This document shows positions 1-45,999 of a stretch of DNA of 64,000 bases, piece by piece. The number at the start of each line of letters is the position of its first letter. Position 1 is the first letter of the stretch. The notes under the pieces are model-generated. The model did not search any database, was not told where the DNA came from, and saw only the letters and a list, made by a program, of their open reading frames with translations. The translations under genes were made by a program, and so were the position numbers. The DNA comes from Lentinula raphanica (taxonomy: Eukaryota > Basidiomycota > Agaricomycetes > Agaricales > Omphalotaceae), in assembly GCA_027919835.1 (NCBI GenBank), contig JANVFP010000018.1, positions 496,001 to 560,000 of the forward strand. Direction: 5' to 3'.

Positions 1-3000
1 TGCAGGCATCCCAACCTTGATGAAACATCATGTCAGTGCAGAGGAATTTGCGTACGCAGCGAGAACGAGTGACATATTGTGAGTTATCTACTCATGCATC
101 GTCTCGCAAAGAAATTGACGTCTTGCGGTGGTAGGGATGAAATACCGGAAATGATTGCTGCTCTCGAACCCCTGAACGCAGGGTTTTGCTTGACCGATTC
201 GAATGACCCACGGCATCAGTACATGTCCAAGCTGAGAAGCAGATTTGGAGAGTTTTTGCACAAAGCCTCTGTCTCTCTTCGTCAACAAGGGGAAGAAAAC
301 ACTGTCGATGCTGTGCACATGCTGGTTCGTATTGTATACGCTGTTATATGCTGCTACCAGACCTTGATCAATTTCATTATCAGTTACGTTCAATTCGAAC
401 GTATATGCTCGAGTATGGGGATAGTAGAGATGGGTATGCAGTTCGATCATTTGGAGAACTCATCTTACTAACTGGATGCAAGGTACTTCGTGAACGAAGA
501 GCAGTATGTATCGACGAAGAATGTATCTCGCCTATATGCCCAACAAAGGTGACTCGGTCAAATATCAAGCCTAGTCCAAAAAAATTGATTGGGAGTTTCC
601 AGAGAATGGCCAAGAGCAGTTTATGTTCGCCGCGCGAGGTAGGAAACACTTCAATGATAGGAACGTTGCATCTTATATTCTGCCAGGTTTTATCATTCAG
701 CTCGTCTAAGATGGAACTCACTCGACCGATTACGGGGACCCCTCGAAGATTCTCTGATTGATGATGTGACGCAATGGTGTATGTGGAACTATGCTAAAGT
801 ACGAATGTACGTCATGTCGCCTCTTCATAAAGCTCAGTACCCACCTCAACCCTATGCAGTTCAAGTCAGTCCCTCCTCGAGAGTATTTGCTCTGTAAGGC
901 TTCAAATCATGGCATCGTATAATGACGCTCATGTTTGAACAGTCCTACGACGGTGTGCGGCGGCGAAGTCTCCCGCTTCTCTATCGCGCTCTGGAGCCCA
1001 ATGTTGAAGATGATGATCGGGCAAAAGGAGCATTGTGGACTTTGAATCTCTCCTCGTTTGGCAAATATGCGATCTCAGGTAAGGCTTATGATGTACCTCC
1101 TTCCACTCTTATTCAAGCTATTGTTAGAGCCTACTCTTGCCACTGAGCTGCTCACCAAGCTCTTGGGTTGTCAGGATAACGAGAAGGTATGTCGAACATT
1201 CCCAAAGATGGTACGAGTTTCAAACGAGCTACCAGACTTCAATACAAAACTGCGTCTCTACTGTTTTCGACACTTGTGCGTAATTATGATCGCAACCGTC
1301 ATTCGCCGTGAAAATTAGACTTCTTGAACAGGTTTGGGATCATTCATTGAACCAAACAATCTCGTTTACGATACCCCCACACCGGCGCTGGAGGAGGTCC
1401 TGAAGTCATTGAAAGCTCGCTTAGAAATGGGAACCGAGGATGAATGTGTCACTGATAAATGCAGAAAGAATCGAATACGGCGCACCCAAATTCAGGACGA
1501 AGCTTCAGAACACACGGTACGCGACACTGCTCTGTTGACCGAAGAAACTAGAGAAATTGACTGTCAATCAGACCCAAATGGTCTTAAACATCGCAAAATC
1601 TTCGAAAACGCATTGGCGCTATGCAATTGTTGCAATGAGATGTCTTCGCACTCTTGTAAGGAGGGATAAGCCTTTGACATCTGCTCAAATGACCTACTTC
1701 CTCGAATCCGTTCATGACAGTCAACCTACCATTGTGAGTTCCTATTCATTTGTCCATGCGTTAGTCTGATGTTTGTAGCGTTATGTACGTGGAGTCAAAG
1801 GTTTACTATCAGGCATAATGCATTAACCTGCGAAAGTAGTACGCACAACGTGCTATTCTAAAGAGCACTCGGACAATCAAGCTACGAACATTCTGCACGA
1901 GTCCCAGTGACTTGTATGAAGGTCGCAATCAAAACCCCCTCAAGAAATCCGTGATAGTGGACGATCCAACTCATGCCTTGACACAGAAGTTCTTGAAGGA
2001 CTATCGATATGCAACTAATGTTAGCCAAGATATGTGCGTATTATGTCATTTCAGTGTATATGTAGACTGACTCAATGCTACCTAGCCTTTATTGTGATAA
2101 GAATCCTCAAGGTTGGATAGCTTGGAGTCGAACTGTGGACCTCTACAAACCACCACATCCTACTGAATCGTCACTTCTACCTTGGGAACCTGCGAGTCAA
2201 GAGGCGGTATCAGCGGCCTCCAAGGTCGCATGCAGTCCAGCGTTTTGGAAGAAGCTCAACAAGTATCTTTCCGAAGAAAACAGAGAAACGTCCATGACGC
2301 AAGATAACGTTTCTTGTATCAAGTCTATTTGTGAGACTATTCAGATTATAGCTGTTTTACAATTCTCATTTCAATCTAGTCCAACTCCTCGAAGATGAGC
2401 CATTACCGGCTGTGAAGCCCATATTGGAAGGATTGCTGAAGGACAAAGATGTGGACAAACAGCGTGCCGCTGCCGAAATAGTTGCAGGGATTATCGGAGG
2501 TGTGTCATGGTGCGATCTATTACAGGCATACTTGTTCACTTCCGTCTAGGCTCAAAGCACTGGGCGCTCGTTAAGCAGAAGAAACTCTGGGAATGGTTCA
2601 AGCCATACTTCAAAGTCATATTCGAACAGAATCTGAAGAGCGATACAGTGGGAATCTGGTCCTCTTTTCTAGAGGTCCGTTGGCAAATTTCTACTCCCAT
2701 CTACGAGGCACTAACAGTCGACGACTCTCAGTACATCTTCTACAATACAGATCCCAGACGAGTTCAGCCTTTGGTGGATTACCTGTTCAATCTCTTCGAG
2801 AATGCGGACCTCAATACAGAACTGTCTTTCGATGCTATCAAGATTTTGTCCCTGTTCAGATCGTGTTATGAAGAGCTTGGATGGAAATCTACAGCATGGT
2901 TGGATGACGCCGTGGACCGCTACTGGAACGAGCTTCATAGTGACCATGATGATGTAAGTCCGAAGCAAGATCGATGCTTTCGAACAGCCTCTGAATTACA

Positions 3001-4576
3001 GTCAGGTTCGATCATATATCGCAGAACTTTTAGCGTTCGCAGACAAGATAAAGGTTCAGTAGTATCGTTGGGACTCTCTAACTAGCATACTGACTGTATG
3101 TTTACAGTGGCAACCGCGACCATCTTTACCAACAGTCGAAGTTCTTGCGAAGGAGTGCAGAGCGTTACCTGTAGACTATGATATTATAGGCATGCGTGGA
3201 AGCTACAATCAGAGCAGGGTGACGGAGCTCGTGCAGAATTTCAAGACCTGGAGAGAGGACAGAGTGTCCGGCGTCCGCGCTTTCCAATCCAAATATGATA
3301 GAGTCGCTATCCTTGTCTGCAGATGGCTCTTCCAAGCGGTTCATGACACGAACGCGATCTGTGTGTTCGACTACGTCCTTCCCTTGATGGTAGGTATTCG
3401 TTCAAAGTTTTCATGTTCTCTGACTGACGTAGACATAATCTTTCAGCCCGAACTTTTCCGCTTCACCGAAGGTCCGTTCATCGCAAACACACCTATGCAC
3501 CGAATTCTGATTTTGCTTCAGTAAACGACAACGACGAATTGGCTAACCGTGCTAACATCCTGCTCGTAAGGATGTGTGGCGTAAGCCCGCCTCGGCCTTT
3601 GGTGTATCCTCTTCTGGACGCCATCTTCGAGACCATCCAATCGTCTCCTGTACGTCTCAAGCTTTTAGACATTGGTTCCAATGTTTACCTTCTTCGCAGT
3701 CGTGGCGAGTACGATTAAAGGCTCTTCCTTTGGTTCAAGGTAATATTACCTCACGAGAACTCCCCCAAATACTCATCTGTCAATACTTAGTGTTCTACTT
3801 CAGACAAATGCCTCTCATCTCAGAAATCAAAGTCGTACAAATGCTTGAGGCCAGTATGCTTTCTACATATAAGAAACATTCGCTTGGCGCTTATCTCGCG
3901 AACAGGTTTTGGGAAAATGTTTGGATGATGAGGTGGTAGAAGTACGGGAAATGGCAGCAACGTGAGTCGATATCGCTTGTGATTCCTCAAGAAACTCATA
4001 TATCTTCTTCAGCACTCTATCGGGGGTACTGCGATTGTCGCCTCGAAGTAGTGTCCTGACATTAAAGGTGCTCTTTCACCACTCTTGTTTCTGACCGAAT
4101 GTTGAATGATATCTGTCCAACAGAACCGTTTCGTCCGTTTGGCGAAGAGCAGTCATATTCCTCCCAAACAAGACCCTACGTACAACAAATGCATCAGACA
4201 ACGGCATGCGGCCATCTTGGGTATCTGCGCTCTTGTGGACAGCTACCCATACACTGTCGAAAAGTGGATGCCAGAGCTTCTAACTAATGTTTTGGCGGAA
4301 CACACATATGATCCAGTCAGTGTGCTTTGCTTCAAATTTGTAAACGAAACTTCAACGTCAAACCTAATTGTAGATACCGATTTCTACCACTGTCCGCAAA
4401 TGTGCACGAAATTTCAAGAAAACGCATCAAGACACTTGGCATGAAGATTCGAAGAAGTTTGATGATCAACAACTCGCTGCTCTTTCGACACTTCTGACCG
4501 GTTCTTCGTACTGTACGTGTACTGAAAGTCTTTTCATGTTATTGCACTCTAACCTGTGGTGAAATCAGATGCATGA
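1..4576 (+). CDS. BLM10: Proteasome activator Blm10/PA200 family protein, copy 1 (5' end outside window)
   Basis: This is the 3' half of a HEAT-repeat proteasome activator that caps the 20S core particle. The coding frame enters in frame 2 (AGIPTLMKHHVSAEEF), with introns about every 150-300 bases. Segments that match copy 2 at 38-46 kb include LTDSNDPRHQ near 200, the HWRYAIVAMRCLRTL block near 1620, RYYAQRAILKS near 1850 and CGVSPPRPLVYPLLDAIFE near 3580. The last intron runs from about 4513 to 4568. Joining TCG TAC T to AT GCA TGA gives S-Y-Y-A-stop, the HbYX-type tail that docks in the 20S alpha-ring pockets and opens the gate. No inactivating stop was seen in the exons I followed, so the gene looks functional. 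The conserved RYYAQRA block is better kept here than in copy 2. Exon borders were assigned by eye. Confidence 0.85.
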
Positions 4577-4863
4577 TCCACACCCATCTATTCCACAACA
4601 TCTCCTCAACATCTCTCGGTAGACAAATCTTTCGTGCGTATCTAGTAATTAATGTGACTCTATAATGTATGGATGTACAACCAATGTATTCGTGTACTTT
4701 GAACCAAGGAGAGGAACAAATGTACCATTTGGATTCGAGGAGACCTGATTTGAGGGGCGGACCCATGCAAGATACTTTATTGTGGGCGCATTATAGCATG
4801 CGGCTCCGAAATTGTACTCATTCAGGGGAACCCACTTTTGTCCTTAACCAGAGCCTTCGCGTC
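4577..4863. other. Intergenic, promoter side of the DUF7770-like gene
   Basis: This stretch lies between the Blm10 stop codon and the preferred start of the next gene. An open frame continues upstream to an ATG at 4669, just after a TATAATG-like sequence, so the downstream protein could begin there instead. Confidence 0.4.
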
Positions 4864-5534: not shown

Positions 5535-5727
5535 GCACTGAGAACTTATGCACAGTGACAGTCAATATATCCCACCCATCGTTTACAATGACCGGGGAAA
5601 ATTCCCAAACCTATACCGGATAGAGTTCATCGAAACTCATCTTCTAAATCTACATGTCAATGATCTAAGGAAAGAGGGAGAACAACGATGTGTGAGCGCT
5701 TGAGCGCTCGTCGTGTTAGAAAGGATA

Positions 5728-6676: not shown

Positions 6677-6777
6677 GAGAGTAATAAAGCAAGATGGAAA
6701 ATCGAGAACGTCATGAAGGCTATTGAGGAACCAATGGAGTCTCACGGCGCACACTGCCTGTTTTGGGTAGGGAATCA

Positions 6778-7893
6778 ATGTCTCCATCTATCCACGACCA
6801 ATTCGTCCTCTTCAGAGATTCGCTCGACGACTATCATGACCGCAGAGAAAGATTGATCAAAGTAATTCTCTTGATTGGTAGTTGTACAAGTCCTGATTGA
6901 CAAAGCATATAGGCCAGTCGAGATATAACGAATATCTCTAAGAAAACTATATTTCTCCTTCATCGCCTCGCTCTAGAAGCTCAAGATGCACCTGCACGCG
7001 CAAGTGCTGCTAAAGCAGGACTCAACAAGCTGCGTGAAGTACAAAAGATGTATGCCGGCATGAAAGATGAGCTGGTTGGGGACAACTTCTGGCGTTGGTG
7101 AGATCTTCATCGCGCAAGTCATGTATATTCACAGGCAAGGGAATTATGTAGGTTATCAACGCCAAGTGTCCCCTGGTCTTCAGGAGTATATCGAGGCCTT
7201 GAGCTTTGCTCACTACTTGGAACACGGGAACCTAATCTCCTATGACCAGGTGCAAGCGACCTTATGCGGAGCAGATGGGATAGCTGTAGGTGTTCTTTCT
7301 CGCTTTCGTTGTCTTCCCATCGATCTCTGACGTGTTGGGGTAAAGTACTTTCCCCTAACAATATCTGACTATCTACTTGGAATCTCTGACTTGACTGGTA
7401 TGTATCCTTCTGCTTTTCAAACGTCTGATTACGCAACCATGCAACAGGTGAACTCATGAGGTTTGCTATTTCTGGATTCGGGAGCCCCGGTGGGCGTTCA
7501 AGAGCTTTAGAGACATGTTATCTCGTTAGAAACTGTAAATCAGGTAAGAAGATTCGTCTTTTAGCCAGAGACATCATCGTCAACGTCTGTTGGTTGTAGA
7601 CTTTGAAAGGTTCACCCCTCACGTATGGGATCTTCATAAAAAGCAAGCTGTAACCGCACAATCGTTGTCCAAAATCGAAGATGGTGCGCATACATGCTAT
7701 ATTTCCTGCCCTCCAACTCAATTTCTTCACAGCCGTATACACAGCCGTCGTCCGGACGTCAGAATTCGATCTACCCCCGGAAATGCTGGATGACCTAGTC
7801 AACGAAACCGTGTTCACCTACAACCGCGAGGGCAAGAACTTCGAGCGAGGAAATGACGACAGTGAAGATTTCAGTCACTCCTACTACCATTGA
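6778..7893 (+). CDS. TSNAX: Translin-associated factor X (TRAX)
   Basis: TRAX pairs with translin to form C3PO, an RNA-binding endoribonuclease that works in small-RNA and tRNA-fragment processing. Seven exons join without frame breaks into about 270 residues. The N-terminal ASRDITNISKKTIFLLHR and the central QVSPGLQEYIEALSF are family hallmarks. They are followed by TGELMRFAISGFGSPGG, DFERFTPHVWDLHKKQ and TAVVRTSEFDLPPEMLDD. The ATG at 6778 starts MSPSIHDQFVLFRDSLDD, the usual amphipathic beginning. Introns are 40-70 bases. The gene is divergent from the HIT gene with 101 bases between start codons. No translin gene is in this window. Confidence 0.9.
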
Positions 7894-8106
7894 TAAGGCC
7901 CACTTACACCTGAAAATATCAAGTAGTGTATGATCTTGGACTTCACATATCGATGTTAGGGTACAATCTATGACCACAGTATATTTCTGTACTTTACAGT
8001 TACAGTACAAACAACAACACAAGCTCTATCTACAACTGTCTATACAACAACCAAAGCATACAGGTTTTACAAGAAACACAACATGAAATGAGGTAGTTGA
8101 GATACA

Positions 8107-10326
8107 TCATTTTGAGAGTGTGCTGGATGTGAGTTTCACACTCATCCGGCCATTTTTGTTCCAGTCATCACCGAGATAGACCAAATCCTTCCTAAGCCAC
8201 TGCACATGATCCAATGACATGCTTTGGCCGTTGATTTCAATGACAACTTTGTCAGAGAGAGTTTCTTCTGTCAACAAGCCGCTATCGTCACGAAGGACTA
8301 GACCACACTGTCCTGGTTTTACCTCGAGCAAATCGAGATCCATAGAAGGAAGAGCAGGAATAGCCTTCGCAGTCGGCGGAATGGGACTAGCAACATACGC
8401 AGGAGACGGCACTGGAGCTCGAATCAAAGGTTCAGCTGCATCTGGCAAAACAGGTGAAGGTGGAATCACTCGTGATAACAGTGGAGTACGTTCATTGACC
8501 CCAGCATCACCTGTGTCAGATCCAGAGCGAGCTGGAGACGATAGACCAGAATTGTCACGTTCCTCTGGATGTTCGTCACTGATTCCCTCAGCAGTGCCAC
8601 TGGGAGCCGATCCTCCGAAAACCTTTTGGAACATCAACGAAAACCAAAGCGTCAATACGAAATAGATATTCCTCATAAACGCCATCATGATGTTCTCCCT
8701 GTTCTCCCGATAAGCTTCTATGAGGAGCGAGGGAGATGATTGGCGGGTAAGCAACGAGCCATGATCACGTTCAACGATCGGGGGACGAAGGGTATGCAAC
8801 GAGTTGAACTCCGAGATTGATGTATCCTCCTGGGTATCATGAGACGCTGAGGGACTGCCAAGGTCTGCATCTTGTTCACCCAGTTCCGAGATCGATGTAG
8901 TCGAGTGATTGTATGAGGGTGACGTCAAATGAGCAATAGGATGCAAATGAGGAGACGGAGGCGGAGTTGGGAGAATTGCATCTTCAGCTGATACAGCAGC
9001 AGTATCTTCTTCTAGTGTGACCGAATGGGGACTCAAAACACTAAAAGACAGCGAATTCTTGGGAGCCAGTGGACCTGAGCCCTGAATTTGAGAATTGGTC
9101 GACGAAATGGAGTAAAGCGGAGTGAGAATGAAATGACCCCCAAAAGGTGGGACAGAGAATTGGACAGGTTCAGACACAGACACCGGGCTGACACTGACAG
9201 GGCTCTTCACGAAATGAACGCTCGGTCGAGGTTGATTGGAGAAGATGGTGAACTCTGCCGTTTCGGCGGCTAAGATGTTGGCAAAAGAAGCAGTTGGAAT
9301 GATGGCCTGGGATGGAACGCCGGAAGGAATAAGAGGGACAAGGATGACCTGTACAAATACAGATGGGGTGGGGGAAGTCGAAGCCAGAGCAGCATAATCA
9401 CCGAAGATACCGAGGAGCCGGCAGGAGATGGAGGCGTTGTGAGCAAAGATTCTGTTGAAAAACAAGTCTGCAGATTGGGAAGGATCAAAGGTATGCAAAA
9501 GCAAAGACCCTGATCCTGAAACCTGTATTTTTCCTGAGGCGCTCACCGAGATAGAGAGAGCAGATGATGCACTTAGTGTGATGGTTTTAGGGCAGTACGA
9601 TCTCGCGTAGGATCGGAAACGGGGCACGAGAATGGCCATAGAAACATTTGCTGCGGGACCTATATACAAGCTTTTCGAAGAGATGAAAGTTAGAATTAAG
9701 ATAGATATCGTGGCCAAAAAAGCAGAGAAAACATGCCTATCTTTTCCAAAGGCCCATATAGACCAATCCTTTGGGTGGGTCAGTTCTGCAATTAGAAGGT
9801 CTTCAACTTGCTTTCCATGGGTATTCCAGACAAAAGGCGCGATGTTCTCCACCAATCCCTCCTCGAACACGATACCAGATGTGTTTTTCGGGCTAGGATG
9901 GAGATGAACCATTCCATTTCGGCCAAATTGACCAAGCCATTTGATTTCTCCGGAGGAATAGATGAGCCGGTAAGTGAACGAGAGATAGGTATCGATTCCA
10001 GAAAACGGGACAGAGCATACGACAGAAAGAACATTCTGTGTTCGCTCACTGATATTGTCCAAATCGACAAGAGAGACCTGAGATTCACTGGACGAAACGT
10101 TGCCGACCTCGCTGAGATCTATCTCGCCCCATTCTCCTTGGTTCCTTCCACCAAATGGAATATCAGACCATAGCTGTACCTTCATCGCATTCTGTTTGAA
10201 CTGCTGGAAATCGTCATCTCCAAGGACGGCAGAGAAGCGGAGTTGAACAGTAGAGTCGCTCGTGTGCCATTCTGGCAAGGCGACACGAACGACTTCGTCT
10301 ATGGCTGGGATGAATGAGATGGTCAT
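8107..10326 (-). CDS. Uncharacterised membrane-anchored protein, single exon
   Basis: I do not recognise this protein. It is one uninterrupted frame of about 740 residues, which is unusual beside its intron-rich neighbours. The first 200 residues look globular, with SFTYRLIYSSGEIKWLGQFG and ending near FVWNTHGKQVEDLL. A hydrophobic segment follows (FSAFLATISILILTFISS). Next comes a beta-rich region, then a Ser/Pro/Thr-rich acidic region. A second hydrophobic stretch (IYFVLTLWFSLMFQKVF) is followed by a Pro-rich C-terminus. The two hydrophobic segments suggest a membrane protein with a large middle domain between them. I chose the ATG at 10326 (MTISFIPAIDEVVRVALPEW). An upstream in-frame ATG at 10395 is possible but precedes a less protein-like stretch. 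Confidence 0.7.
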   Translation of the reverse strand: MTISFIPAIDEVVRVALPEWHTSDSTVQLRFSAVLGDDDFQQFKQNAMKVQLWSDIPFGGRNQGEWGEIDLSEVGNVSSSESQVSLVDLDNISERTQNVLSVVCSVPFSGIDTYLSFTYRLIYSSGEIKWLGQFGRNGMVHLHPSPKNTSGIVFEEGLVENIAPFVWNTHGKQVEDLLIAELTHPKDWSIWAFGKDRHVFSAFLATISILILTFISSKSLYIGPAANVSMAILVPRFRSYARSYCPKTITLSASSALSISVSASGKIQVSGSGSLLLHTFDPSQSADLFFNRIFAHNASISCRLLGIFGDYAALASTSPTPSVFVQVILVPLIPSGVPSQAIIPTASFANILAAETAEFTIFSNQPRPSVHFVKSPVSVSPVSVSEPVQFSVPPFGGHFILTPLYSISSTNSQIQGSGPLAPKNSLSFSVLSPHSVTLEEDTAAVSAEDAILPTPPPSPHLHPIAHLTSPSYNHSTTSISELGEQDADLGSPSASHDTQEDTSISEFNSLHTLRPPIVERDHGSLLTRQSSPSLLIEAYRENRENIMMAFMRNIYFVLTLWFSLMFQKVFGGSAPSGTAEGISDEHPEERDNSGLSSPARSGSDTGDAGVNERTPLLSRVIPPSPVLPDAAEPLIRAPVPSPAYVASPIPPTAKAIPALPSMDLDLLEVKPGQCGLVLRDDSGLLTEETLSDKVVIEINGQSMSLDHVQWLRKDLVYLGDDWNKNGRMSVKLTSSTLSK

Positions 10327-10505
10327 GGCCCTCGTGGAGGTCAAGAGACAACTGAGGTAAATATCTAGGCTGTAACCACCCTGGGTAGATTGCACCGCTG
10401 AGGCCTCGACGCCGTACTGACTGAAGGAGCAGGTTTTGACGTCACGATCTATTACTACATACCGGGTAGTCTTATCTCATTATACTATACATACAAACAA
10501 TACCA

Positions 10506-14348: not shown

Positions 14349-14367
14349 GTACTGAGTACCTCAGTAC
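14349..14367. repeat. Perfect inverted repeat, 8-base arms
   Basis: GTACTGAG and CTCAGTAC flank the three bases TAC. It could be a dimeric regulator site or a small hairpin. No gene starts close by. Confidence 0.4.
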
Positions 14368-20809: not shown

Positions 20810-20868
20810 GGTTTGCAAGCTCGCAGTTCGGCAGGGGGCCTCTGTCGAACTTGGGTTTCCCTACGAGA

Positions 20869-21447: not shown

Positions 21448-22880
<1,433 letters not shown>

Positions 22881-23839: not shown

Positions 23840-25609
23840 ATGCCACCTCGAGTGCCCACCAGAGGCTTCTCATCTTTCATCTCCTTCTACTCCTGTGTAA
23901 AGCCGTCAATACCAGCACCACAATCTTTCTCAGCTCGCCAATTCAGATGTTTACATTCCGCGACACAAAATACCTTCACCAAAACATTAACTCCTGCCAA
24001 ACGTCCCGGCGACAAGGTCGGTCATTTCTCTTCATGAACTCTTCCGTACAATACCCGTACAATAGACTGACTAACTTCAGAGGGCATTCCACGCAAGCTC
24101 ACCTCATGCTGCACCTAAAGATCCTTACGAAGTCCTGGGAGTCAAACGCGACGCTTCAGCGGCCGATATTAAGAAAACGTATTTTTCGGTATGTATGCAT
24201 GCTATTACATGTGTAATATCTATCTCCTAAACATACACGTTCCTCTAGCTCGCTCGGAAATATCATCCAGACACCAATCCGGATAAGACTGCTCAAAACA
24301 AGTTTATCGAAATCCAGGAGGCTTATGATGTTGGTTTGATAGACATATAATTAATATCACTGCTCACTAGGCTTTTTATAGGTCCTGAAGGATGAAAAGA
24401 AACGAGCGGCATATGATCAATACGGTGCAGCATCTCAACAGCCAGGGTTCGATCCAAATGCGTTTTCTGGATTTGGAGGCGCTGGAGGCGCGGGCTTTGG
24501 AGGATTCCAGGATTTCGCTTCTGCATTCGGTGGAGGAGGCCGTGGAGGTTCGTCAGACTTATTCGAGCAACTCTTCAGTCAGTTTGGCGCAGGAGGTCGA
24601 CGCAGAGGACCTCAACGAGGAGCGGATCTGGAAACATACATCTCCATAAGCTTTCTAGAAGCTTGTAAAGGTACAACACGCAAAGTCACGATCACACCAG
24701 TCACAAACTGCGATACTTGTTCTGGAAGTGGGTTGAAAGCTGGAGCCAAACGGACAACATGTACAACCTGTGGAGGTTCTGGTACTCGGACATTTGTTAT
24801 AGACAGCGGTTTCCAAATGTCGAGTACTTGTAATGCCTGTGATGGAGTCGGGAGTACCGTTCCTCGCAGTGGTCAATGTGGTAGCTGTGGGGGTGTTGGA
24901 AAGGTTAGGACACGGAAAACGGTCGATGTCTCTATACCGCCAGGTAACGGAGGCTTTCTCTCACTTTCACTTCGTGGGCAATGACTCATCGACGGTATCT
25001 CCCAGGGGTCGAGGACGGCATGGTTATCCGCATACCAAACTCGGGTGACGCCCCCATATCTGGTACAGGACTTGCTGGTGATCTTCTCGTCCGGTTGAAC
25101 GTTGCTTCTTCCAAGCAATTCCAGCGTCAGGGATCAAATCTGTATCACTCAGTCAAGATACCATTACATACGGCTCTATTAGGCGGACGCGTACGCGTTC
25201 CTACTTTAGACGGTGATGTGGATGTTCGTGTTCCCAGCGGGACTCAACCGGGCGAAGAAATGAAATTGAGGGGTCGAGGTGTTCCACGCGTAGATCGGAA
25301 CGACACCGGTGACCTATTTGTCACCTTTTCAGTCGTGCTTCCCAGGTGTCTAAAACTCTAGCCCTGAAGAAGTGCATCTCTAACACCATTCATAGGTCTT
25401 TGACTGACAAACAACGAAAGCTTTTACAAGAATACGCGGATGACGTTGAAGGACGCACCCCTTCAAGTAATGAACCTTCCAAATCCAAAAAAGAATCCTC
25501 AAAGGATGTTGAAAATAACGGTACGGCTTCTTTCGATTACCCTTCAGCCTCTTCTGGTGGCTGGGGATCTCGTGTAATAAAGAGATTGCGAAGGCTCATT
25601 GGACTTTGA
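23840..25609 (+). CDS. MDJ1: Mitochondrial DnaJ/Hsp40 (Mdj1-type)
   Basis: The first 80 residues are basic and Ser/Thr-rich with no early acid (MPPRVPTRGFSSFISFYSCV), which fits a mitochondrial presequence. The J domain follows (DPYEVLGVKRDASAADIKK, KYHPDTNPDK with HPD, RAAYDQYG), then a Gly/Phe-rich region. Four zinc-binding CxxCxGxG repeats come next: CDTCSGSG, CTTCGGSG, CNACDGVG and CGSCGGVG. The substrate-binding domains contain LLGGRVRVPTLDGDV. This is a type I co-chaperone that stimulates matrix Hsp70. Five to six short introns split the gene. It ends GWGSRVIKRLRRLIGL. An alternative last exon up to 25787 (ending EQKRATA) would need an intron from about 25574 to 25695. Confidence 0.9.
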
Positions 25610-30266: not shown

Positions 30267-31878
30267 ATGACCAAAGTCTCTCCAATCGTCACTCCTTCTA
30301 TCTCTTCATCACTTTCTCTGGAAAGTCCCACAAATCATAGGAGAGTCTCGACTAGTTCCGTGCAGAGCTTAGCGAGCGTCATAGCAAGCGCAGCTTCTTC
30401 TGTATCTTCAATTCCATTCTCAGGAGAACCGGAAGTAGTGAAAGCAGAGGGTCTGCGGCACGCGAGCATTTTTTTGGACGCGAGGTGAGAACGTTCACTC
30501 CACAATTTTCACTCAAAATATCATCGAAACAGATAACCTTGACCCTTGTTCATGGTCTGGTCTGGTTCTGACTCTAATTTTATTTGCATTCAATGCTCAT
30601 ACATCGTTTGTTTTGCAACTCAGACAGTATAAGAAGCCTTCTTTTCTGCTACAACTCCTCGAATGCATACGCGCATTGAAAGTTCCCTCATGGCATAGCC
30701 CGAGCATCACACCTGAACAACTCAAGATACACAAAGTCTCCGGTTCACTGACAAATGCCGTCTTCTTCGTGTCTTGCCCCTCGGTAAACGAAGCCCTCAC
30801 CATTCTCCTCCGAATTTATGGACCGTCATCAGGATCTTTAATTTCACGACCCAGAGAGCTCCATACTCTCCATATTCTTTCTTCTCGCTACAACCTAGGT
30901 CCGAAAGTCTATGGGACTTTCGAGAACGGCCGAATGGAAGAGTACTTCCCTTCAAAGACTCTCACTGCTCAAGACATGCGAGATCCACAAATTAGTCGAT
31001 GGATCGGTGCCCGCATGGCTGAACTTCATTCAGTCCCGATCGACGTCATTGAAGAATCTTCACCTGGAAGCGGCGGAGAGGGAACCGGATGGCAGCTGGG
31101 AGCAAAGAAGAACGTCTGGTCGTGGCTTGCGTCTGCCAAAGATGTTCTGATGCATCCAAATATACCTCAATCCGTGCGGGAGGAGTTTGACCTAGACAAG
31201 TTTCAACACCAATGGGAAAGCTATATACAATGGCTTTCTGGTGTAGATGATGTGCATAATGGTAGCAGAAGGGTGTTTGCACACAATGATACGCAATATG
31301 GCAATTTACTCAGACTTGAGGGTGTAGAGGTTCGTGCGCCGCATCGGCAGGTATGTAGACCTTCCCTTGCAAATGCATTCCAAATCGCTTAGCACTCACA
31401 ACCTCTCCGTCTCGAAGCTGATCGTGGTCGACTTTGAGTATGCCTCGCCGAATCCTGCCTCTTTTGATATTGCAAACCACTTCCTCGAGTGGACATACAA
31501 CTATCACACGTCGACTCCTCACCTACCGGACGAAAGTCGCTATCCCACTCCACAAGAACGTGAAAACTTCTACCTGTCCTATCTCGAACATACCGGCACC
31601 TCCTCTACTGACCGGCTCGCCCAGCAGGCAAAAGGCCTGGAAAAACAAGTGCGCTACTGGACCCCAGGTACTGCTTACTTTTGTTTCATTTCTTGGACAG
31701 TCGTTGGCTGATGATTTATGCGCTAGCGTGCCACGCAATGTGGTGTATGTGGGGAATCGTGCAAGCCACTGACGACGTTATTAACAACGTCACAGAACCA
31801 GAATTTGACTATATAGGTTATTCGCGTTTTCGAATGCTTGCGTTTCGACGAAGCGTTGCGGCTCTGGGTATTATATAA
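30267..31878 (+). CDS. CKI1: Choline/ethanolamine kinase
   Basis: This enzyme makes phosphocholine or phosphoethanolamine from ATP, the first step of the Kennedy pathway. A Ser-rich N-terminal tail is followed by the kinase N-lobe (KVSGSLTNAVFFVSCPS, LLRIYGPSSGSLISRPREL). The catalytic loop is RRVFAHNDTQYGNLLRLEG, with the key Asp and Asn. After an intron near 31351-31420 comes the metal-binding LIVVDFEYASPNPASFDIAN and then NHFLEWTYNYH. The last intron (about 31666-31728) joins WTPA to CHAMWCMWGIVQATDD. The ATG at 30216 is an alternative start. Choline versus ethanolamine preference cannot be read with certainty. Confidence 0.9.
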
Positions 31879-32575: not shown

Positions 32576-35026
32576 TCAAACCCAAGCTTTTTCGTTCAAC
32601 CTCGACGGTCCCATGGCAATCTCGGTCGTTGTCCATGGAGAATTGATATGTCCTTCACCTGCAGGACTCGGACCACGAGGGTATGCCGACAACGGGAATT
32701 GCGTAGAAGGTCGGTTGGAGGTAAAGTTTCCCCAATTACCAGCGCTTCCAGCTCGAACATGTCCATTGACACGAGGCACAATCGGATTACCATCGCCAGC
32801 AGGCAGGGGGTATGAGTTACCAGCCATGGATTGCGAGGCTTGATACGAAATATCCTCAGACCCAGTAGTTGTGTGTCGGACGTTTGTGGGTGGCGTTTTG
32901 TTCATGCGCTGTAAAGACGGAGGTAAGAAATTAGTTGATGTTGGAGAATCAACTGAACGGTGAACTCATACTTGATTGTACCCTACTATCTCCATCCTTG
33001 CATTATTGTGTCGGCCTAAATCGGGACCAGCCGTCACCGGTGCAGGGGACTTGGCGGAAATATTATCAGGTGCAGCCATTAAGACACCGTTACTGGCGAA
33101 CGTAGGGTAAGCAGACTTGTTCTGACCCTTCATTCTGTCGACCGAAGTGTCAACCTTGAGTCTCTGTTTTTGGGCGCCACCAAACTGGAAGTTGGTGTTG
33201 TTGGTCATATCGACAGGAGTGGACGAGGTGTTGCTGCCCGTGTCCTGAGTACGCTTGGCGGATATACGAGCAAGAAGCGATACGGCTTCGTTCGGATCGC
33301 TGTTGGTGCTCGGAGAGCGCTCACGACCATCAGGACGAGGGGGAGGCGGAGGTGCAATATCAGTTTGCTGCCCAGGCGGTGTTTGGCCAGGGTTAGGAAG
33401 CTCCGTGTGGATGAAGCAACATCTCTTTCCGTAAGGACAAGAACCAGAAACCCAGAAAGTCTAAAACGCCAGTCATCAGAACAAATTCAAAGATGGATCA
33501 GACGAAGGTAGACGCACTCTACAAATTTCCGTTTTATACTAGTAAATGAATGACTGATCAGCTATATGAGCAGCGTAAATACCGCATCTTCATACCTTTG
33601 GATGACGCGAAACTTTGCGAAGCTCTTCTTCGCCATGCGCGAATTGACACTTTCCAGCGTAGCGACAAGTACCCTTTTCTTCCCAGCTTCTGCAGAGCTC
33701 GGTTTTGTAAAGGCCGAGCTTTCGATTGTTTGCGCTAGGTCCATTTTGATTACCGACGCTGGACGCTGGACTGGACATACCACCATCGAGCTGGGGTGGA
33801 ATCGTAACGTACTGTCCGCCAGTGTATTGAGCTTGTATACGATTTGCCATTAGTTGCGCAGCAGCTACAGCAGGGTCAGACCGGTAGGCATCCTGAGCAC
33901 CATAGAATGGTGGAGAATACATCGGCATCTGCGGTGGGGGAGCCCCGCCAAGATTCGCGGGGAACATACCAGCAGGGAAGGGCGGCATACCGTTGTTCAG
34001 CATGGCAATAGCAGCAGGATCACGAATGGCAGTCGGGTCAGACGCAGAATGATGGTGAGCGCGAGGAAACACGTTGTGTTGCTGCTGAACACGCGACAGG
34101 GCCGGATGAGCAGGATCATGAGCGGCAGAACCGGGGGGCATCATATCGTATATTTGCTGAGAGTTTCCAAGAGGTATCTGTCCGTTAGGAGCGTAACCAG
34201 GACTGGGAATGGGTAAGCCTTGTTGAGGGGCAAATCCGCGAGGAGGTTGACGATAAGGCACAGATACGTTGCCAGACCTTCCTTGGACATAAGGAGGACT
34301 TGTTGGTGGCATATTAGAAGCAGCCCCAGGTTGAAGAGGAGCGTTAAAGTTGCGCGCTTGTGCACTATAGTCTATTGGAGATGTAACGTCACGGTTCGAT
34401 GGAGAAGTAATGTCACGGTTCAAATTCTGCGGTCCTTGGTGAACCTGAGTTTGAGAACGGTGATGGACATTCTGATTATTGGGCACCAGCGAGGGATATG
34501 ACAGTTGCTCTCCCGAAGAATAGTTCGTAGTCCATTGCTGTTGATTGGTCTCATCAGGAGAACCTTCGTTAGTCTGTTGCAGCCGACGAAGGTCTGCAGA
34601 AGAGAGACCGCCACTAAAAGAGTGAGGTCGCTCTTTGGTTTCGTTGATAGAACCGCTTTTCAAAGGAGCGTGGGCAAGCATTGTGTTGCTTGTGGAAGAC
34701 GTTGCAGAGTTTTGTGAAGAAGCTGTAGTGTCTGTGGACGAGCCGCGGGAGTGAGAGACGACAATTTGATGATCAGACGCTTTGGGAGAAGAGTCGGTGC
34801 TTGGAATGGAATTGGTCTCGAGCGGACTGGTATCGGGAAGGACAGCTGTTGCCAGCTTGTTTTTCGGGGGAGTCCGAATTGGGGCGTCATCCGTAGCTTC
34901 TCCTGAAGCATCGCCCATGTCCAGTCGGGCAATTCCGTTTGCTAGGGCTTCGGCGACGAAATGGCCATCGGGGTCGAAGTACCAGCGACTGTCGCGATTA
35001 ATTACGTTGTCGGGATGAGAAGACAT
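32576..35026 (-). CDS. Tandem CCCH zinc-finger RNA-binding protein, TIS11/ZFP36 type
   Basis: The 440-residue N-terminal part is Ser/Pro/Gln/Asn-rich and probably disordered, opening [20 protein letters not shown]. Two fingers follow across an intron at 33490-33590: [20 protein letters not shown] then CQFAH, and [20 protein letters not shown] then CCFIH. Both have C-x8-C-x5-C-x3-H spacing and the (Y)KTE(L/I)C lead-in used to read UAUU-type AU-rich elements. Such proteins recruit deadenylases and speed mRNA decay. A second intron near 32910-32972 precedes the Pro/Gly-rich C-terminus that ends RLNEKAWV. The long low-complexity head is typical for fungal members. Confidence 0.9.
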
Positions 35027-36519
35027 GGGTTTAGAAATAGAGAGTTTTTGAAAACCAAGTGGAGATGTTCGACGAGGAGGCCAATTCTGTGGCGGTTGAT
35101 GGTGAGATATTCAGTACTGAGCCATATCATAGATACGTACCTCTAGAGCTTGACGGTCAGGCTGCCAGTCGAGGGAGTCAGTGAGCTGGGATCTATTAGT
35201 GATATAGATGGGCGGTAGTAATTCGTCTGGAGCGTAATTCTTCGTAGACGTCGTGAGGGCTTCGTGCATTTAAGAACTAAGATAAATGAGGAAAAGCAGA
35301 AAAAGTTGGGGAAAGGACATACTGTGTATTATAAAGATGGCGCCTTGGACGTCGGGAGTGATGATGGTAATAAACAAGTGCTGCAAAAAGAGCAGATAGA
35401 TAACCGCTAGAAAGAGGAAAGCAGAATAGGTATAAAGACGTGAACAGAAGATGGTGGTATCTGTTAAAGAGAAAGAAGCGAGGGCCTGGCAGAAACTGCA
35501 CGGACGCAACGTTTTGATATTATACACGTGCTGCTCACTTTCTGTTCAAAATTTTTCTACCAAGTCCGTTTCTTGTACCGTCAACTTGGTAATAATCCTG
35601 CTTGCTTCCCTCACGGTCTTTGTCGATGCTCAAGGCAGCAGTAGGCTATAGCTCAAGACAGAAGCGCAATTTCGACGAGGCTATCCACCTAGATCAAAGC
35701 AACTTTCCCCTTTTGGCCATAAAATTCCGTCGTCAACAAGTTTTGATTTATGGATCATTTTTATTGTTAATTCTGAACAGTTAAACTCCTTCAGCCTCTC
35801 TGCAGACACGGCACATCCAACCTTCCATTTTATGTCTAGACAAAAACCATTTCTCGCTCCAGGCAATATTCCGCACCGGCCGCAAGCCCGGTCACTTCAG
35901 TCATTTCACAACGTAAACCTCGGTAACTGTTCCAGGCAAGGTGTCATCAAACTATATGATCTGTTTCCATCTACGCCTTGTCGAGCTCCGTATTTTACCT
36001 TATCCGATTCACGTCCCAACTCTTTCCTCATTTCGCTAACAAGTTTGAACGTCTAGTTATCGAAAAGGTAAGAAAAAGGACATGCCAGAGATGTTGCAAA
36101 CTCGGAGTCCCAACAAATTGGTAGAATCAATGTCGAGAAGAGACCCAAACGAAGCCTATCGATTGCCTGAGGCTGCTGCAATTTTACGATCTCATGCAGG
36201 GCCCATCTACATCCTATCGCCGTTAGTGTCCAATTTATCGGCACGGCGTTCTGACTGACCTTGTACCTCCCGAGAAGGCTACGTGCTCCTTCATCCCCTT
36301 CATTCGAGTTCAGTGACAGTGAGAGTTGCAGTCCGTGCTTGGCGTCTGGAAACGCAACTCGTCGTCCCAGGCCCTCCCAAGACATGGGTAGGGAGAGATA
36401 GCCTGTAAGTAGGATCTATAACCTCCGACTCCCGAAAAGCGGCTTCGCCGTATGTTTTTTCAGGTCCCATCGGATCATCAAAGCATCATGAAATGCCAGT
36501 CTCGTCGATTTAGATCATT

Positions 36520-38121: not shown

Positions 38122-41100
38122 TCACGCGTCTGGCAGGAAAGTCAGTTCCAAAAGAAGAACAGGAAGTGTAATGCATTTAGGACTCACAGTACGAAGTTCC
38201 AACCAGCATGGTAGATAGACTCTGTAGTTGATCTTCATCGAAGGCTGATTGGTCTTTATGCCAAGTGTCCTGAGCATTCAGGTCAGAGAAAAAGGGAGCG
38301 AGACGGCGTAACTTATGAGGATACACACCTGATGCGTCTGGAGCAAGGAAAAATCTCAACACCACTTCAATAAATCAAGAAATACGAACGACGAACCTTC
38401 TTGAACTCGGAAGCGCATTTCCTGATGGAGGTAGATATTGGGGAGGGTCAGTAGCATGAGGCGCTAGCACTGAAGCATACGGACGTCAAAATGCGGTCTA
38501 ATGTAACACAACATGAAACCCACATTCGGTCAGAGGAGGCATCCACGGCTCAACGGAGTATGGGAAACTTTCTATGAGAGCGCAGAGACCCAGGATCGCG
38601 GAGTGCAGAGTTCGTAAGCAGGCAGCATACGTAGGGTCTGATCTTGGAGGCAGTTTGGTTTTTCTCATTAAGGAGACAAAGCGTTTCTAGCAATGCGATG
38701 AAGCTAGACTCGCAGTAGCAAGACGATCTTCTTACCTTGAGCGGTAAAATGCTCTGACGCTGGGACACCCTAACCACTCCCGATAAGACCTTGGATGCCA
38801 TTTCTCGTACCTCGACATTTTCATCTGCAAGGCAATCGAGCAGAACATCCATGACGTTGGATACGCCATCTGGAGGTATGTATAGCAAGTTGCGGTAGAA
38901 GAACACAACCAAGGCGGGAAGTGCATGATGACGGATCCGCCAAGACTAGGTATTGTTTGTTAGTTTGACTAACTAGAAAGAAAATCTCGAGAGTACCGTG
39001 GAAGACTTGATGGCAGTCACGAAATGCCCCAAAATGATTTCTATGTGCTCTCGTACTGGTGTGACGGCGGACAGCACGTAAAGAACAGCAGTACTATATG
39101 TTTGTAGCTCCGAGCTATCGTTCAGCTCTGACATTCGTAGAATTTCAGGCCTAGCATAGGTGAGTTAGCATACAGTATACTAATTTGTAATGCAAGTATA
39201 CATCATCGGAACGGCATAGTTGAAGATCAAGCATGCTTGGGAGCCATAAGCAGAGTTCCAGATCCACTGCAGTACTGTGCCACAATGTCAGTTCCCATGG
39301 CCATATAACAAAGAGCAAACGGACATACGCGTCAAACCAACTTTGTCATACTCAGACAAGCTGACCCTGGGGGGAGGAAGACGCTCCTCCCTCCATTTTG
39401 GCAGCTGAGCGAGTAGCTCGGAAATCTTCTCTTGGTAAGGTGCCTCACTAAAAACAGGTAAGCAGAGTACCCTCAAAGCAGATCGCGTAACGCACCGGAT
39501 GCGGAGAGGGTCCTTTAATGTTTGACATGCTTCCAGGAGGAGATTCGTTGAGCCATAGTAAGGCTGCCATTGTATCTTAATAAAACTGTACAATAGATGT
39601 GCGACTTGAGTCCGAATCTATCTTTCGATGAGCCTGGGAATAAGCACCAAAGTCGTTGAAGGGCGCACCTCTGCGTACGACGTGTTTACATTATCCAGCA
39701 GCAAGTTCACGTATTTATCCGACAGCGGACTTATCAGGATACCCATATGATCGATCAGGATGGTGAAGATAGTGAGTGTCTTCGACACTGTCCGTATCAG
39801 TAATGAGTAGGCTAGAGGCAGAGAAGAGGTAAGCGAAGTTTCGTACTTTCAAAAGCCGAATCTCCGTTGAACTCCAGGGGAAGGCTCAGTATCCACTCGA
39901 CCAGAGGAGCATTACGTCGCGGATCACGATCTTCTAATATGCACTGTACATGATGATGATGAGGACACTTCACTAAGATTTGAAGCAGTGCGCCCACCGT
40001 GAAGATGCTTTCCCAGAAGTTGAGCGTATCTGGTTTGAGTTGAGCAAATAGACGACTTAGGCGATCCATTAACCATTTCCACAAATTATCTGTGTTAGTC
40101 TTCGACCAATGCTTCGAACCTGGAAGACCTCAGTGTTTAAAGAGGGGCGAGAGTCAATTTATATACCTCGAAAGAGGCCTGCCAGAACTTCGCCTCCTGC
40201 ACGTTGTTTATATTTGTCTGGGTCGAATAACAGTGGATCAATTGTTTCTAGTAGCGTGTCCAATCCATCACTCTCGAAAGTTTTGGCTATTTGATCCAGA
40301 AATCAGCAGGGTCCTACTAAGGCGGAAAGTGAGAGTTTTACCAAGACTCTTGATGTATGAGACATTCTCGGAACGGATTTCAATAGTAGAGTGAGTCTTG
40401 GCCGATTCTTGACCCCAAAGGAGGAGGAGTTTACTGTAGTAGTCAGAAGTGGTGATCGTAGATCTGATGGCCTGTAGGAAAGGCGTGGATTCGATACGCC
40501 AGGGCATCACAAATCCATCATATACTCGTTTATAGCCACGGATTTGGGGGGCCCACTGTAGAAACCCTGTGCGAATCTTGTCAAAAAAGATACTAGATAC
40601 ACAACATCAGAAATCAGCCTTGGGGCAGGAAGTAGAGACCGTACGTCTCCGCAGTAGAAGGTGATTGCCAGGACGCGACAAACACAGCAGGATCTGATAC
40701 ATCCACCATTACATGAAGGGGATTTGTCCATTCCTCTGCCCAAAGCTCTCGTTCCGACTTAGCGTAAGCGCGGTATTTCATGTGAGCAAGGATTTTTATT
40801 ATCGCACTGTGTCATATAACCATTTGTCAGCGAGCTAGAGCCCAAAGCCACACACTACACTTGCCGTTGAGAATTCCTTCGTATACTTGGTTGCGGAGAT
40901 GTTGAATTTTGCAGCAAGAACTCCACAGCTGAAGCAGGTAAAGGTGTATCGCGTCGAATCAAAGTGTTCAACATTCTCAACGCCATTTGTTCGTATCGCC
41001 ACTAGGAAAATCTCAGCTATATTGATAGAAGCAAGAACACCGTCAAAGTATCTCACGTGCGTATTTGGACGCGAACCGATCTCAACAATAGCAGATATCT

Positions 41101-44100
41101 AGGAAAAAGCCGCCTTGTATCAAAGTTCAAGAATCAATAAATGTTATGCTTACTGTCTTTTCATACGTTGCATTTCTCTTGGATACCCGAATGGGAGCTT
41201 TGCGCAGAGCATCCGCTAGTAGTTCTTCCGGTATGAAATGTGAGGAAAAGTCTTGCTGAAGTTGTGAAAGAGCTTGATCTATAGTGGGCGTCTGTAACGA
41301 GTATGCATCCGTATGAAGTACTTCTTCATGAAGATGCATTAAACAATCAGACGCAAAACTGTTAACCAGTTTCTGGATCGACGGCTGAAAGAGGACATGA
41401 GATCCACAAGCGGAAAGGGAAGGACCAAAGATACCTTTTCTTCGTGTTGGCACTCGAGAAGCGAAATCAGATATTGGGTATGAAAATGTTCGTCTATTTG
41501 TTTCGTGAGAACAGGACGCGCATCCGACTGAAAGACAATGACCTGCTAACGCATAGCTCATTATTCCCTTATCGCCTAGAACATATAGTGCGCCCTTCAT
41601 TCTATCTGGGTCGTTTCCTTTGGTAAGTGCGTTGAGAAGAACGTCCAGAGTGGATCGAGTGGATCGAACATAGATCTACATTGTCGAATAAGGAGTGTTA
41701 TTCAAAATATGGCGGATGACATACCCCGTAAACATTCATTAGGACACCCTGTGCATGGCTGAAGAACAGTTGAGTTTCAAAAATTGCAATAGACAGCAAT
41801 CTTTCTTACCGACGAACCCGCGTATAAGGTGAAAGAGATGATTCGACAAGTTCTCGGATCAGCTCATCATCGAGGGCAGATCGACTGCGGTATAACGACT
41901 GCATGTACACTCGACCGCTATGATAGACTTGGGCACGCTTGGAATGAACCAGCCTTGCGCTTTCAACTTGCTTTGGCCATAAACGGTTCAAACTATGATA
42001 ACACAGATTAGACAACATCAGAGGACGAGGGGATATTGTGTAGAGCTTACCTTCTTGACGTCGAGTAATTTTTGTATAGAGAGTCATATTGGCTTTTGCT
42101 GAGACCATACTCAAGTAGGTACACGTCGATTGCTTTTGAAACACTGATCACTGCGTCGATGTGATCTTCGCCTTCACGCTTCTGACGAAGAGCGCGCGCT
42201 GCTGTCAAAATAACTTTGCCAAAGTGTTCTTTACATGCCGAGACCCGCTGATGTCTTGGATCGCTCGAGTCTGTAAGCGTGAAACCAGCTTCGACATCAA
42301 GGTGTGTGATGAGGAGGTCGAGTGTTTCCGTGTCTTCGTAGAGATGCTGATTTTCCACAGTCTTTTTTCCCTCTTTCAAAAACGTTGAAAGCCCTGCCCA
42401 GATCGATTTAGAAAAGTGGATAAATCTGGGTGGAGTTAGGAAATCGGACCTGATATGCTACAAAGGTTCAAGCACTCACCGACAGAAGTCATTACGATCA
42501 GCATTGTCCCATGATGAGATTCTGGCTAGCAGTTCCTCAATTTTGGCCAACGTCGGTGAAGCAACCTCATCGAGTATTTGCAACACCATGTCAATTTCAG
42601 GCTCGGATGGTACTAAAGCAGCAATAAGCAAACGTGAGCTCACAGGATGTCCGAAAATGGCTACGTACCATGCCAATTGATCTCAACTTCCTCTTTCTTG
42701 TAGAATTTTCCCCAATATAGATTATGGTTCTGGTCGAACTCTGTGAGACAGAGGTTCACTAAGTTGGCACCACAATCAGAGCAAACATAAAACGGACCAG
42801 CGTCATTCCATTCTGTGGCGTTAACGAAACGATTGTCTTGAGGGTAAACTCCAGTGAGAGTGTGGAGGATCTGAATGGGGTTCGTAAGCTACGTTCACAG
42901 CAGACAAGCCGACTCCCTCACTCTCGTTATGAGATATCCAGTACCAGAGTAGCCTCTCTCGTTCTTGGTCTTGTCTCGAAGGAGTTTGATCAGTGGAATC
43001 AGAGTGTCTTTATGCTTGACGATCTAGAGAAAATTTCAAACATGAATAAAAATACAGAGAGACACAATGTATACCTCAAGTCCACCATGTCCTAAACATC
43101 CCCTCAAGATGGCCAGGTCTGACGACAGCATCAGTCAGCGAAAATATACGAGCAATCCATCTATCAGCTCACTCCAATGAAGCGTAGTGTCAGAAGGTAT
43201 TACGGAGTGTGTAGAAGTTGTCCTTGTACTCGACGCCCCATGTTTCAACTCTTCTTCGATCTGCATTGAGCAATAGGGTATGAACTTTGCCATTGTTGGC
43301 CCTGGATGGGCCCTTGCTAAACAGCCGACGAGCTGTCCAAATGCGCGGACCGCATTGGATTTAGCATTCGTTGTGGCATAGTCATATACCAGTTTCAACA
43401 CCAAATCGAATAATTGATCTGAAAGGTGCAGACAAACGATATCCATCATATTCTTTATGGATTTCACTACCCTTTCTTCGCTTTTGCCACCTGTCATGTT
43501 CTTGCGGCCTCCTTCCTCAGGAAGATTCTCGTACAATGCAAATACGCGTCGGAAAAGAGCCACGACCCAATCTGCCAAAGGAAAATCAGGCCAGAAGACC
43601 TTACTGGCTGAAGAACAACGAACTTACCAGCGAAACCGGCGGTGCTGTCTCGTACCAAAGCTCTCTCTTCGCTCCTGCTCAGAGTGGGCATCCCTGCTTC
43701 AACTCCAGCAGGTAGTTGAGTCTCGTCATCATCAACTTCCATGTGCCCTACATCGTCTGTCAAAGGAGCACCGGAATGGTGAATCGATAGATCTCCGAGT
43801 TTGATGTATTGAACTGTCGCTAATATGAACATCGCGGCGAAAACAGTTTTCGCTGGATCGTTCTACGAACAAAGTCAGGACCAAGAATCATACGAGCTTG
43901 TAGAAGGGAACGCACGACATCGATTCCAGGCAGGGAAAGCTCAAGTAGAGGGATTACATGTTTTTGACCGCGCATCCAGACACTTTCTGTAGTCAAAGGT
44001 CGAGGAATACCGGCAAGCATGCTCAATACAGCAGTAGTTCGATGGGTCTCATTTACTACTTCGAGACCACTGTAAGATCGCTCCAGGAGATCCGGCATGA

Positions 44101-45999
44101 TGAGGGAGGGTTCCAACATGGCCAGAATGCGGAGAGCGCCTTGAGTGAAGCCCATGCTCACAGGGTCTTTGGCGAACATGGCAAGAAGCGCAGGAGTGCG
44201 TAGGGTAGTAACGAACGCCTTTCGCATGTCCGAGGTCATTCGACGAGTCTGTGCATACGATTGTTCAGATCCTGTGCGAGAGCGGGGCAGTGAAACACCT
44301 TACCACAGGAGTTTTGCAAAGTTCGCTTTTCTCCTCCTGAACTCGATTGGAAAATTCGGTTGCGAGGTGTTTCAGGAAGGTTGCAAGCTGCGTGTACATC
44401 ATGATCAAGCAGAACTCTGAACTACACAGCCAAGACTTACGCTGATTGACCATTGACCCGAATTTGACGGATGGAAAAAGGATTCTGTGCTGGTTATCAG
44501 TCGTTCCAGTGTATCGAGAGCCTTGGAACCAGCGAGATAGCCGCTGGTCTTCGAAGCAGGATCAGTGGAGCTGGACTCTTTGACGGGTCCATCGGTAGAG
44601 ATGGAGTAGACCAAGATTTTAGCAAGAGCAGCTGCAAATCGGCTGAGTAATGGAAAGATGAATCGAATTCGATCGCTTACATTGCCTGCTGATTGTTTTC
44701 TTGATTCTGAGCGATTGGGGATTTGCCAGGCTGTCTGCATGACTTGCGGTCGTTGAAGATCCCTGATCTCATGGGAAATATTAGTATGAGGAATCTTTGG
44801 GATGAATGTTGATAACGGACCCTAGTTATACCAACGGGAACATCTGAACATGTGTCTGAGTACTGGTCCCACAGCAGTTACAGTACGAAACTCACTCATC
44901 GAACCCAGGCCTTTGCCGATTAACACATCCCACTGGTTTTCTGTCCAAATTCCAATATCCTTCCAAGCGGCCTTCCCTGTTACATCCTCTTCAGCCGGAC
45001 CTGCAATATACTCCTCCGAAAGTTCCCCCGCAAGTTCAAGGAACCTCTCGTCAAGTATTCCAGAGTTGAACGCCTCCCAGAGTTTGAATATGAATGGCAG
45101 ATATTCATTGGAATGGGTTAGAGGCAGGAAAGATGTCATGACGGGAACCATAGTAAGCACAGTCTATCATAATTTGGTTAAGCTGGCTGTGAGGTCAAAT
45201 GAGGAGTTATCAACACACCTCTTGAGTGAGAATTGGTAGGAATGTGGACAGCATCTCTTGGACTTCGTTCCCTGGATAGAAGCGTTTGCATTGTTCCGCC
45301 ACAAATAATAGTATGTTGATAAAGTTTCGCCTGGAAAGTCAATTTGGTTAATTGCCACGTAACAAAGTAGAGATAACGTTACGAGGTATCTTGTATGCGC
45401 GCCTTGACCCATAGTTCCTTCTGTAAACTGAGCCAGAGAGGCTTCCAGGGCAGTTGGAGATCTGTAATTTCAAGTTTATACTTTCCACCTTTGGAGACGA
45501 GTAAACGAGAGATCATTTCAGCCCAGCTGCGAATTACGCGCGCTTCGATTCCAGGAAGCATGCAAAGTTCATAGTATAATCGAACTAGTTTAGCACGGGT
45601 AGACTTGTGTATAGGGTATCGCATGAGCATCCAGCTAGGGTATTGTGAACGAGACTTGACAAAACGATCAAGAGGGAGTCAGACGTACCACTGCAACATC
45701 TTATCCCAAACCGTCATGACATGCCAATTCTGCGTTTGAGCGCATACAGTGATCTTTCCGACGATTTCTTCCAATCGTGCCTGCATGTATTCGGGGGTCT
45801 CGCATTCGTATGGTACAGAATTGAGGTAACTCTGGAGGGATCGCATCTGCGTGTCGTATGAGGACGGATCAATGACATCCTCGGCAGGAGTGTCTGAGAA
45901 AGACATATCATCGTCCTCCATGTTCAAGTCGGCAAGGATAGAAGAGTAGAGATTATCGGTTTCTAGTTGCAAGGCAGCAGCTATGTTATCAAGAGACAT
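38122..45999 (-). CDS. BLM10: Proteasome activator Blm10/PA200 family protein, copy 2 (complete)
   Basis: This is a very large HEAT-repeat 20S-proteasome activator with about 30 short introns. The start MSLDNIAAALQLETDNLYSS is followed by an acidic stretch. Family blocks include LPWKPLWLSLQKELWVKARI near 45440, NAVRAFGQLVGCLARAHPGP near 43330, a Cys pair VCSDCGANLVNLC near 42750, LTDSSDPRHQ near 42270, and THWRYEQMALRMLNTLIRRD near 40950. The tail runs QDTWHKDQ ... GTSYYA. The C-terminal YYA is formed by joining TCG TAC T (38190s) to AC GCG TGA (38122-38129), the same codon phase as in copy 1. I saw no inactivating stop. The gene is divergent from the AIM18-like gene with 196 bases between start codons. 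Some exon borders are uncertain. Confidence 0.88.

Follow-up and report, generated by a model that had tools for sequence, protein, structure and literature searches.

The proteasome activator Blm10 is encoded by a single gene in yeast. In human PA200, as described in the available text of PMC7077846, the C-terminal YYA enters the alpha5/alpha6 pocket of the 20S core and the loop Thr562-Lys574 reaches into the ring. Fusarium graminearum FgBlm10, a fungal Blm10, ends in a YYX tail whose last 11 residues are functionally important according to the accessible part of PMC9499325, and the weak knockout phenotypes reported in the available portions of work on mice (PMC9406137) and Fusarium (PMC9499325) leave the role of Blm10/PA200 open. 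A survey of activators (Fort et al. 2015, PMC4453063) states, in the text available, that PA200 is a unique gene in each genome, with PF11919 present once, and calls this an orthology signature.

The window analyzed here is the whole stretch of 64,000 nucleotides at C18:496001-560000 in the Lentinula raphanica assembly (49.06 Mb, 75 contigs), and it carries two genes of this family, referred to as copy 1 and copy 2. Both genes are full-length and have conserved tails, each falls in a clade of its own, introns are shared between them, their contigs match in many species, and the assembly has one 20S set. From these observations we conclude that they very probably represent ancient paralogous lineages of Blm10/PA200 caps, which most likely arose by a DNA-level duplication in the stem of Agaricomycetes, were both kept and would share one 20S core.

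Two Blm10/PA200 loci in the assembly

Profile searches of the whole assembly give 13 exon matches to PF16507 (PSME4 mid HEAT) and 4 matches to PF11919 (PSME4 C-terminal), all confined to two clusters on opposite strands, C18:493650-500514 (+) and C18:534186-540509 (-). The earlier note, made from the letters of the window, had proposed two Blm10/PA200 genes facing each other, and this arrangement is borne out, as the only two clusters of the assembly are convergent and separated by 33 kb. Both loci score above the cut-off for PF16507, exon by exon, as well as for PF11919, and the encoded proteins (2003 and 1930 aa) have a length corresponding to a mass near 200 kDa. BLM10_N (PF16547) has no match in the assembly and likewise none in any control, and it is carried by only some relatives among the matches listed. 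The best match among solved structures is PA200 for both copies (5.1e-87 for copy 1, 2.9e-83 for copy 2).

The final gene models of the two copies are 36.5% identical over 1,983 columns (31% with the early models), and they share 98.1% (copy 1) and 99.4% (copy 2) identity with L. raphanica proteins. The blocks LTDS-DPRHQ and HWRY, previously named as shared, are present in order in both copies, and a recount of the last 29 residues agrees on 18 identical positions. The block RRNSQRQ ascribed to copy 2 reads RRNSQRA after intron splicing.

Gene models

The final models were obtained by spliced alignment to database relatives, following drafts from a splice model. The protein and structure searches with the two copies, the clade identities and the window rows in the trees of 241 and 54 rows relied on drafts of 2081 and 2044 aa, which were partly mis-spliced, while the analyses of introns, AU tests, fixed columns and final identity used the later models.

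Copy 1 extends beyond the window, with its ATG at C18:492038, 3,962 bases to the left, as found in a 20 kb left flank fetched from the contig; the N-terminal half, whose lack the earlier note had considered as a refutation, is present. The model guided by L. edodes contains 47 introns, and its frame is unbroken against the L. edodes and L. detonsa references, while one frame-shift step is needed against the L. raphanica reference (P0121), which is judged to read into an intron where this step falls. Copy 2 begins with an ATG at 45999, where it had been placed before, contains 39 introns and encodes 1930 aa when read across a frame break near the C-terminal end, upstream of the YYA tail (Table 1). 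The claim that both genes keep intact frames thus holds for copy 1 (two of three references), but copy 2 has a one-base break at 38443 against all three. Intact versions of copy 2 are deposited for Lentinula (P0001 to P0003), and the frame stays open along an alternative splice path through the break, though about 16 residues then change; the break may be an assembly error or a real allele. One intron of each copy (3850-3905 and 40807-40864) has a GC instead of a GT donor, backed in each case by two of three references.

Table 1. Features of the window, with positions counted from its first nucleotide.
Feature	Position	Strand	Remark
Copy 1 Blm10/PA200, part inside the window	1..4576	+	profile matches, spliced alignment
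Last intron of copy 1	4513..4568	+	phase 1, splits YYA
8-base terminal exon of copy 1	4569..4576	+	completes YYA and stop
Translin-family gene (matched part)	6907..7399	+	downstream of copy 1
DnaJ central domain	24382-24981		ordinary neighbor
Choline kinase	30442-31389		ordinary neighbor
CCCH zinc-finger gene (rough model)	32576..35269	-	downstream of copy 2
Copy 2 Blm10/PA200	38122..45999	-	profile matches, spliced alignment
8-base terminal exon of copy 2	38122..38129	-	completes YYA and stop
Last intron of copy 2	38130..38187	-	phase 1, alignment column and phase of copy 1
C run with one-base frame break	38440..38443	-	against 3/3 Lentinula references
TIM21	49686-50384		ordinary neighbor
SGT1	51805-53920		ordinary neighbor
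Nramp	57947-58408		ordinary neighbor

The YYA tail and the last intron

Both copies end in SYYA after splicing of the last intron, in agreement with the tail noticed earlier, and both therefore carry the HbYX motif (C-terminal YYA), which in copy 2 lies beyond the frame break of this assembly. Among the matches listed, 68 of 120 models for copy 1 and 86 of 120 for copy 2 end in YYA. Of the other 86 models, 70 have G[ST]SY near the end, followed by C in 54, which is what reading into an overlooked last intron would produce; the remaining 16 of the 240 lack both YYA and a terminal-region G[ST]SY. Automatic annotation thus often misses the 8-base exon encoding YYA, with G[ST]SY lacking YYA in 70 of the 240 listed models. 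YC is likewise present in the tail of a Kwoniella model, and the last intron may therefore predate the duplication.

In the available text of PMC9499325, Fusarium Blm10 without its last 11 residues suppressed the pkr defect, which full deletion did not. Retention of the last intron would hypothetically strip YYA from both mushroom caps and leave a cap without its gate-opening tail.

Two clades across Agaricomycetes

The protein search with copy 1 was evaluated for the best 120 of 204 matches and that with copy 2 for the best 120 of 459, the latter with scoring limited to the 7,980 candidates with the most words in common. The two lists separate completely in a 241-row tree, with 121 rows on the side of copy 1, 120 on the side of copy 2 and no mixing; the fused P0011 (2733 aa) was left out of this tree and of the fixed-column analysis. 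Sequences of the copy 1 clade share a mean identity of 0.656 and those of the copy 2 clade 0.615, compared with 0.378 across the two clades. The tree and alignment called for by the earlier note thus place each copy in its own clade with other Agaricomycetes, and neither is an assembly duplicate.

Both paralogs occur in at least 67 species, and the orders found in both lists, as we assign the listed species, are Agaricales, Polyporales, Boletales, Russulales, Gloeophyllales, Jaapiales and Hymenochaetales, while Cantharellales, Sebacinales, Auriculariales and Dacrymycetes are absent among the matches listed (120 rows each). Judged from these protein sequences, the paired Blm10 is not peculiar to L. 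raphanica and recurs across Agaricomycetes. Members of both clades are already named Blm10 or PSME4 in databases, many of these names seemingly given by automatic annotation. No description of a second Blm10 in mushrooms was found, by title and abstract, among the papers listed in a literature search that reached few subscription journals.

Linkage and neighboring genes

Among the matches listed, a contig of equal size is given for both paralogs in 54 of the 67 species, equal size being a stand-in for the same contig that says little about distance on megabase contigs; in 6 of these 54 species the contigs are under 320 kb. The listed contigs differ in 13 of the 67 species, several of them being short, and where serial gene tags were read for both paralogs (8 species), their numbers differ by 7-24. 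The linkage table covers species with both paralogs among the matches listed, leaves out 'lgn' rows, and includes four proteins from outside the 241-row tree, the clade side of which was assigned by BLASTP. The best explanation is that loose linkage of the two paralogs has been maintained in many species.

The genes next to the two copies may be part of this old arrangement, as a Fibroporia database model has a translin domain fused behind the copy 1 protein, and models from Fibroporia and Tetrapyrgos have CCCH domains fused behind the copy 2 protein. These fusions are read as mis-joined neighbors preserving the old gene order. The neighbors in the window were named from single open frames and are hence rough, since gene finding over the whole window merged or split genes. 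A 789-residue open frame without Pfam match lies between the copies (8107-10476, -). To the left of copy 1 there are two phosphotransferase-like (APH) open frames (L009:1674-2555 and L010:8572-9651) and a BTG domain (L010:3-878).

Origin of the duplication

Alignment of the two copies shows that copy 2, with 39 introns, has 24 that match introns of copy 1 in both column and phase, the last intron among them, against a random expectation of 0.3 on average and 4 at maximum in 2,000 draws. The common ancestor is therefore intron-rich, and the copying happened at the DNA level.

A third protein search gave 28 proteins, including one from Rhodosporidiobolus, which we take to belong to Pucciniomycotina, and seven that we likewise assign to Tremellomycetes. 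In a tree of 54 rows (26 of copy 1, 22 of copy 2 and six outgroups), SH-aLRT is 100 for the copy 1 clade, 100 for the copy 2 clade and 95.2 for both together against the outgroups; the two clades have similar stems (0.62 and 0.64), and Clathrus is deepest in the copy 1 clade. The AU test on 20 rows favors a duplication after the split of Tremellomycetes (0.93) and rejects the joining of Tremellomycetes to copy 2 (0.002-0.003). By these phylogenetic comparisons, the duplication most likely followed the departure of Tremellomycetes and took place on the stem lineage of Agaricomycetes.

An older duplication, before the parting of Tremellomycetes and Agaricomycetes, in which the Tremellomycetes gene would belong to the copy 1 lineage and copy 2 would have been lost there, is considered unlikely. 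The AU test does not reject the tree joining Tremellomycetes with copy 1 (0.083 under LG+F+G4 and 0.077 under LG+C20+F+G4), but the tree with both copies together is the one favored by the AU test as well as by SH-aLRT, and the distance of Tremellomycetes is about the same from copy 1 (0.33-0.34) as from copy 2 (0.34-0.35). A recent local duplication, an assembly duplication or a retrocopy, to which the facing position of the copies 33 kb apart in the same window might point, is barely conceivable given the separate clades across Agaricomycetes, the 36.5% identity and the 47 and 39 introns with 24 in common; the retrocopy is rejected on these grounds, and the assembly duplicate is excluded by the identity and the shared introns.

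Divergence and conserved columns

The earlier note also held that copy 2 has diverged more, which is only partly upheld. Across 210 pairs of matched species, copy 2 distances exceed those of copy 1 by a mean factor of 1.2, and of the 34 among 1843 columns that are fixed but different between the clades, the outgroup residue is kept by copy 1 in 13, by copy 2 in 5 and by neither in 10, with 6 unpolarizable. However, the copies are alike in mean path length between the duplication node and the tips (1.28 and 1.26), with the copy 1 path the shorter one in just 7 of the 22 species, and they are equally distant from outgroups (0.37 and 0.37 to Rhodosporidiobolus). Seven of the 34 differences change charge.

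Columns fixed alike in both clades number 198 of 1843. Their density is highest (28 per 100 columns) in the most C-terminal of the 100-column windows, which spans residues 1860-1960 of copy 1 and stops 43 columns short of the alignment end; the next densest window covers residues 729-828 (21), and the loop window has 18. The ENLP[ED]E start of the PA200-type loop is kept in 114 of 120 and 116 of 120 listed relatives of copies 1 and 2, respectively, the match to the loop resting on a weak alignment.

Possible roles of the two copies

The assembly contains 14 clusters of PF00227 for 20S subunits, equal to the 14 genes expected, and 6 clusters in the search with the alpha N-terminal family, where 7 alpha-subunit genes are expected. 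PA28 is represented by one cluster. With one 20S set and one PA28, both caps would share one core.

Each copy is predicted to be a HEAT-repeat protein docking on the 20S through YYA (HbYX) in the alpha5/alpha6 pocket, and each cap would open the 20S gate without ATP. Sharing of the core would lead to Blm10A-20S and Blm10B-20S, and perhaps also to particles capped by one of each. Binding of the 20S by both copies is proposed from what is known of the family, two kinds of Blm10-proteasome, as suggested earlier, may exist, and both copies may have been retained because of different substrates or stages. A full two-cap system, in which Blm10A and Blm10B split substrates or stages (e.g. mycelium versus fruiting body or meiosis), form mixed double caps and obtain YYA only after removal of the last intron, is put forward tentatively.

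It is rather improbable that one copy alone is still a proteasome cap and that the other has a different role, with YYA as a relic. The 34 fixed differences, including those in charge, are compatible with such a division, and so is the different effect of tail loss (11 residues) and gene loss for Fusarium Blm10 in the available text of PMC9499325, by which cap and other roles are separable. Against it, columns with the same fixed residue in the two clades are densest in the windows near the C terminus, and neither clade has lost the tail.

As both lineages persist in many mushroom-forming fungi, they provide natural pairs for asking what a Blm10 cap does, and the paralogs could be deleted singly in laboratory mushrooms.

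Comparison with known activators

Human PA200/PSME4 (PDB 6rey, 6kwx) belongs by sequence to the same family as the two copies and has the YYA tail in common with them. It differs at the bromodomain-like acetyl-lysine pair Asn1716-Phe1717, as the aligned residues are others in both clades, namely Ser in 110 of 110 motif rows followed by Pro in 109 in the copy 1 clade, and mostly Ser-Gln (77 of 104 rows) in the copy 2 clade. Yeast is reported in the available text of PMC7077846 to use acetyl-lysine residues other than this pair, which therefore does not define the family. Binding of inositol phosphates at two openings is a further trait of PA200/Blm10 activators; the residues involved are not named in the available text of PMC7077846. 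Yeast Blm10 (PDB 4v7o, 9d0t) is of the same family with a YYA tail, and its C-terminal 240 residues align with the copies; it is a weaker match than PA200, the full-length chain giving E-values of 3.6e-19 for copy 1 and 3.3e-28 for copy 2.

FgBlm10 is treated as one gene in the available text of PMC9499325, in contrast to the two genes here. The chordate PA28 paralogs PSME1/2/3, as presented in the accessible part of Fort et al. 2015 (PMC4453063), are likewise duplicated and specialized members of an activator family, though of a different one from Blm10/PA200. The same source describes PA200/Blm10, in the part available, as a single-gene activator, a statement of a survey rather than a structural requirement, and the two lineages described here depart from it, with two loci in L. 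raphanica and at least 67 species with both.
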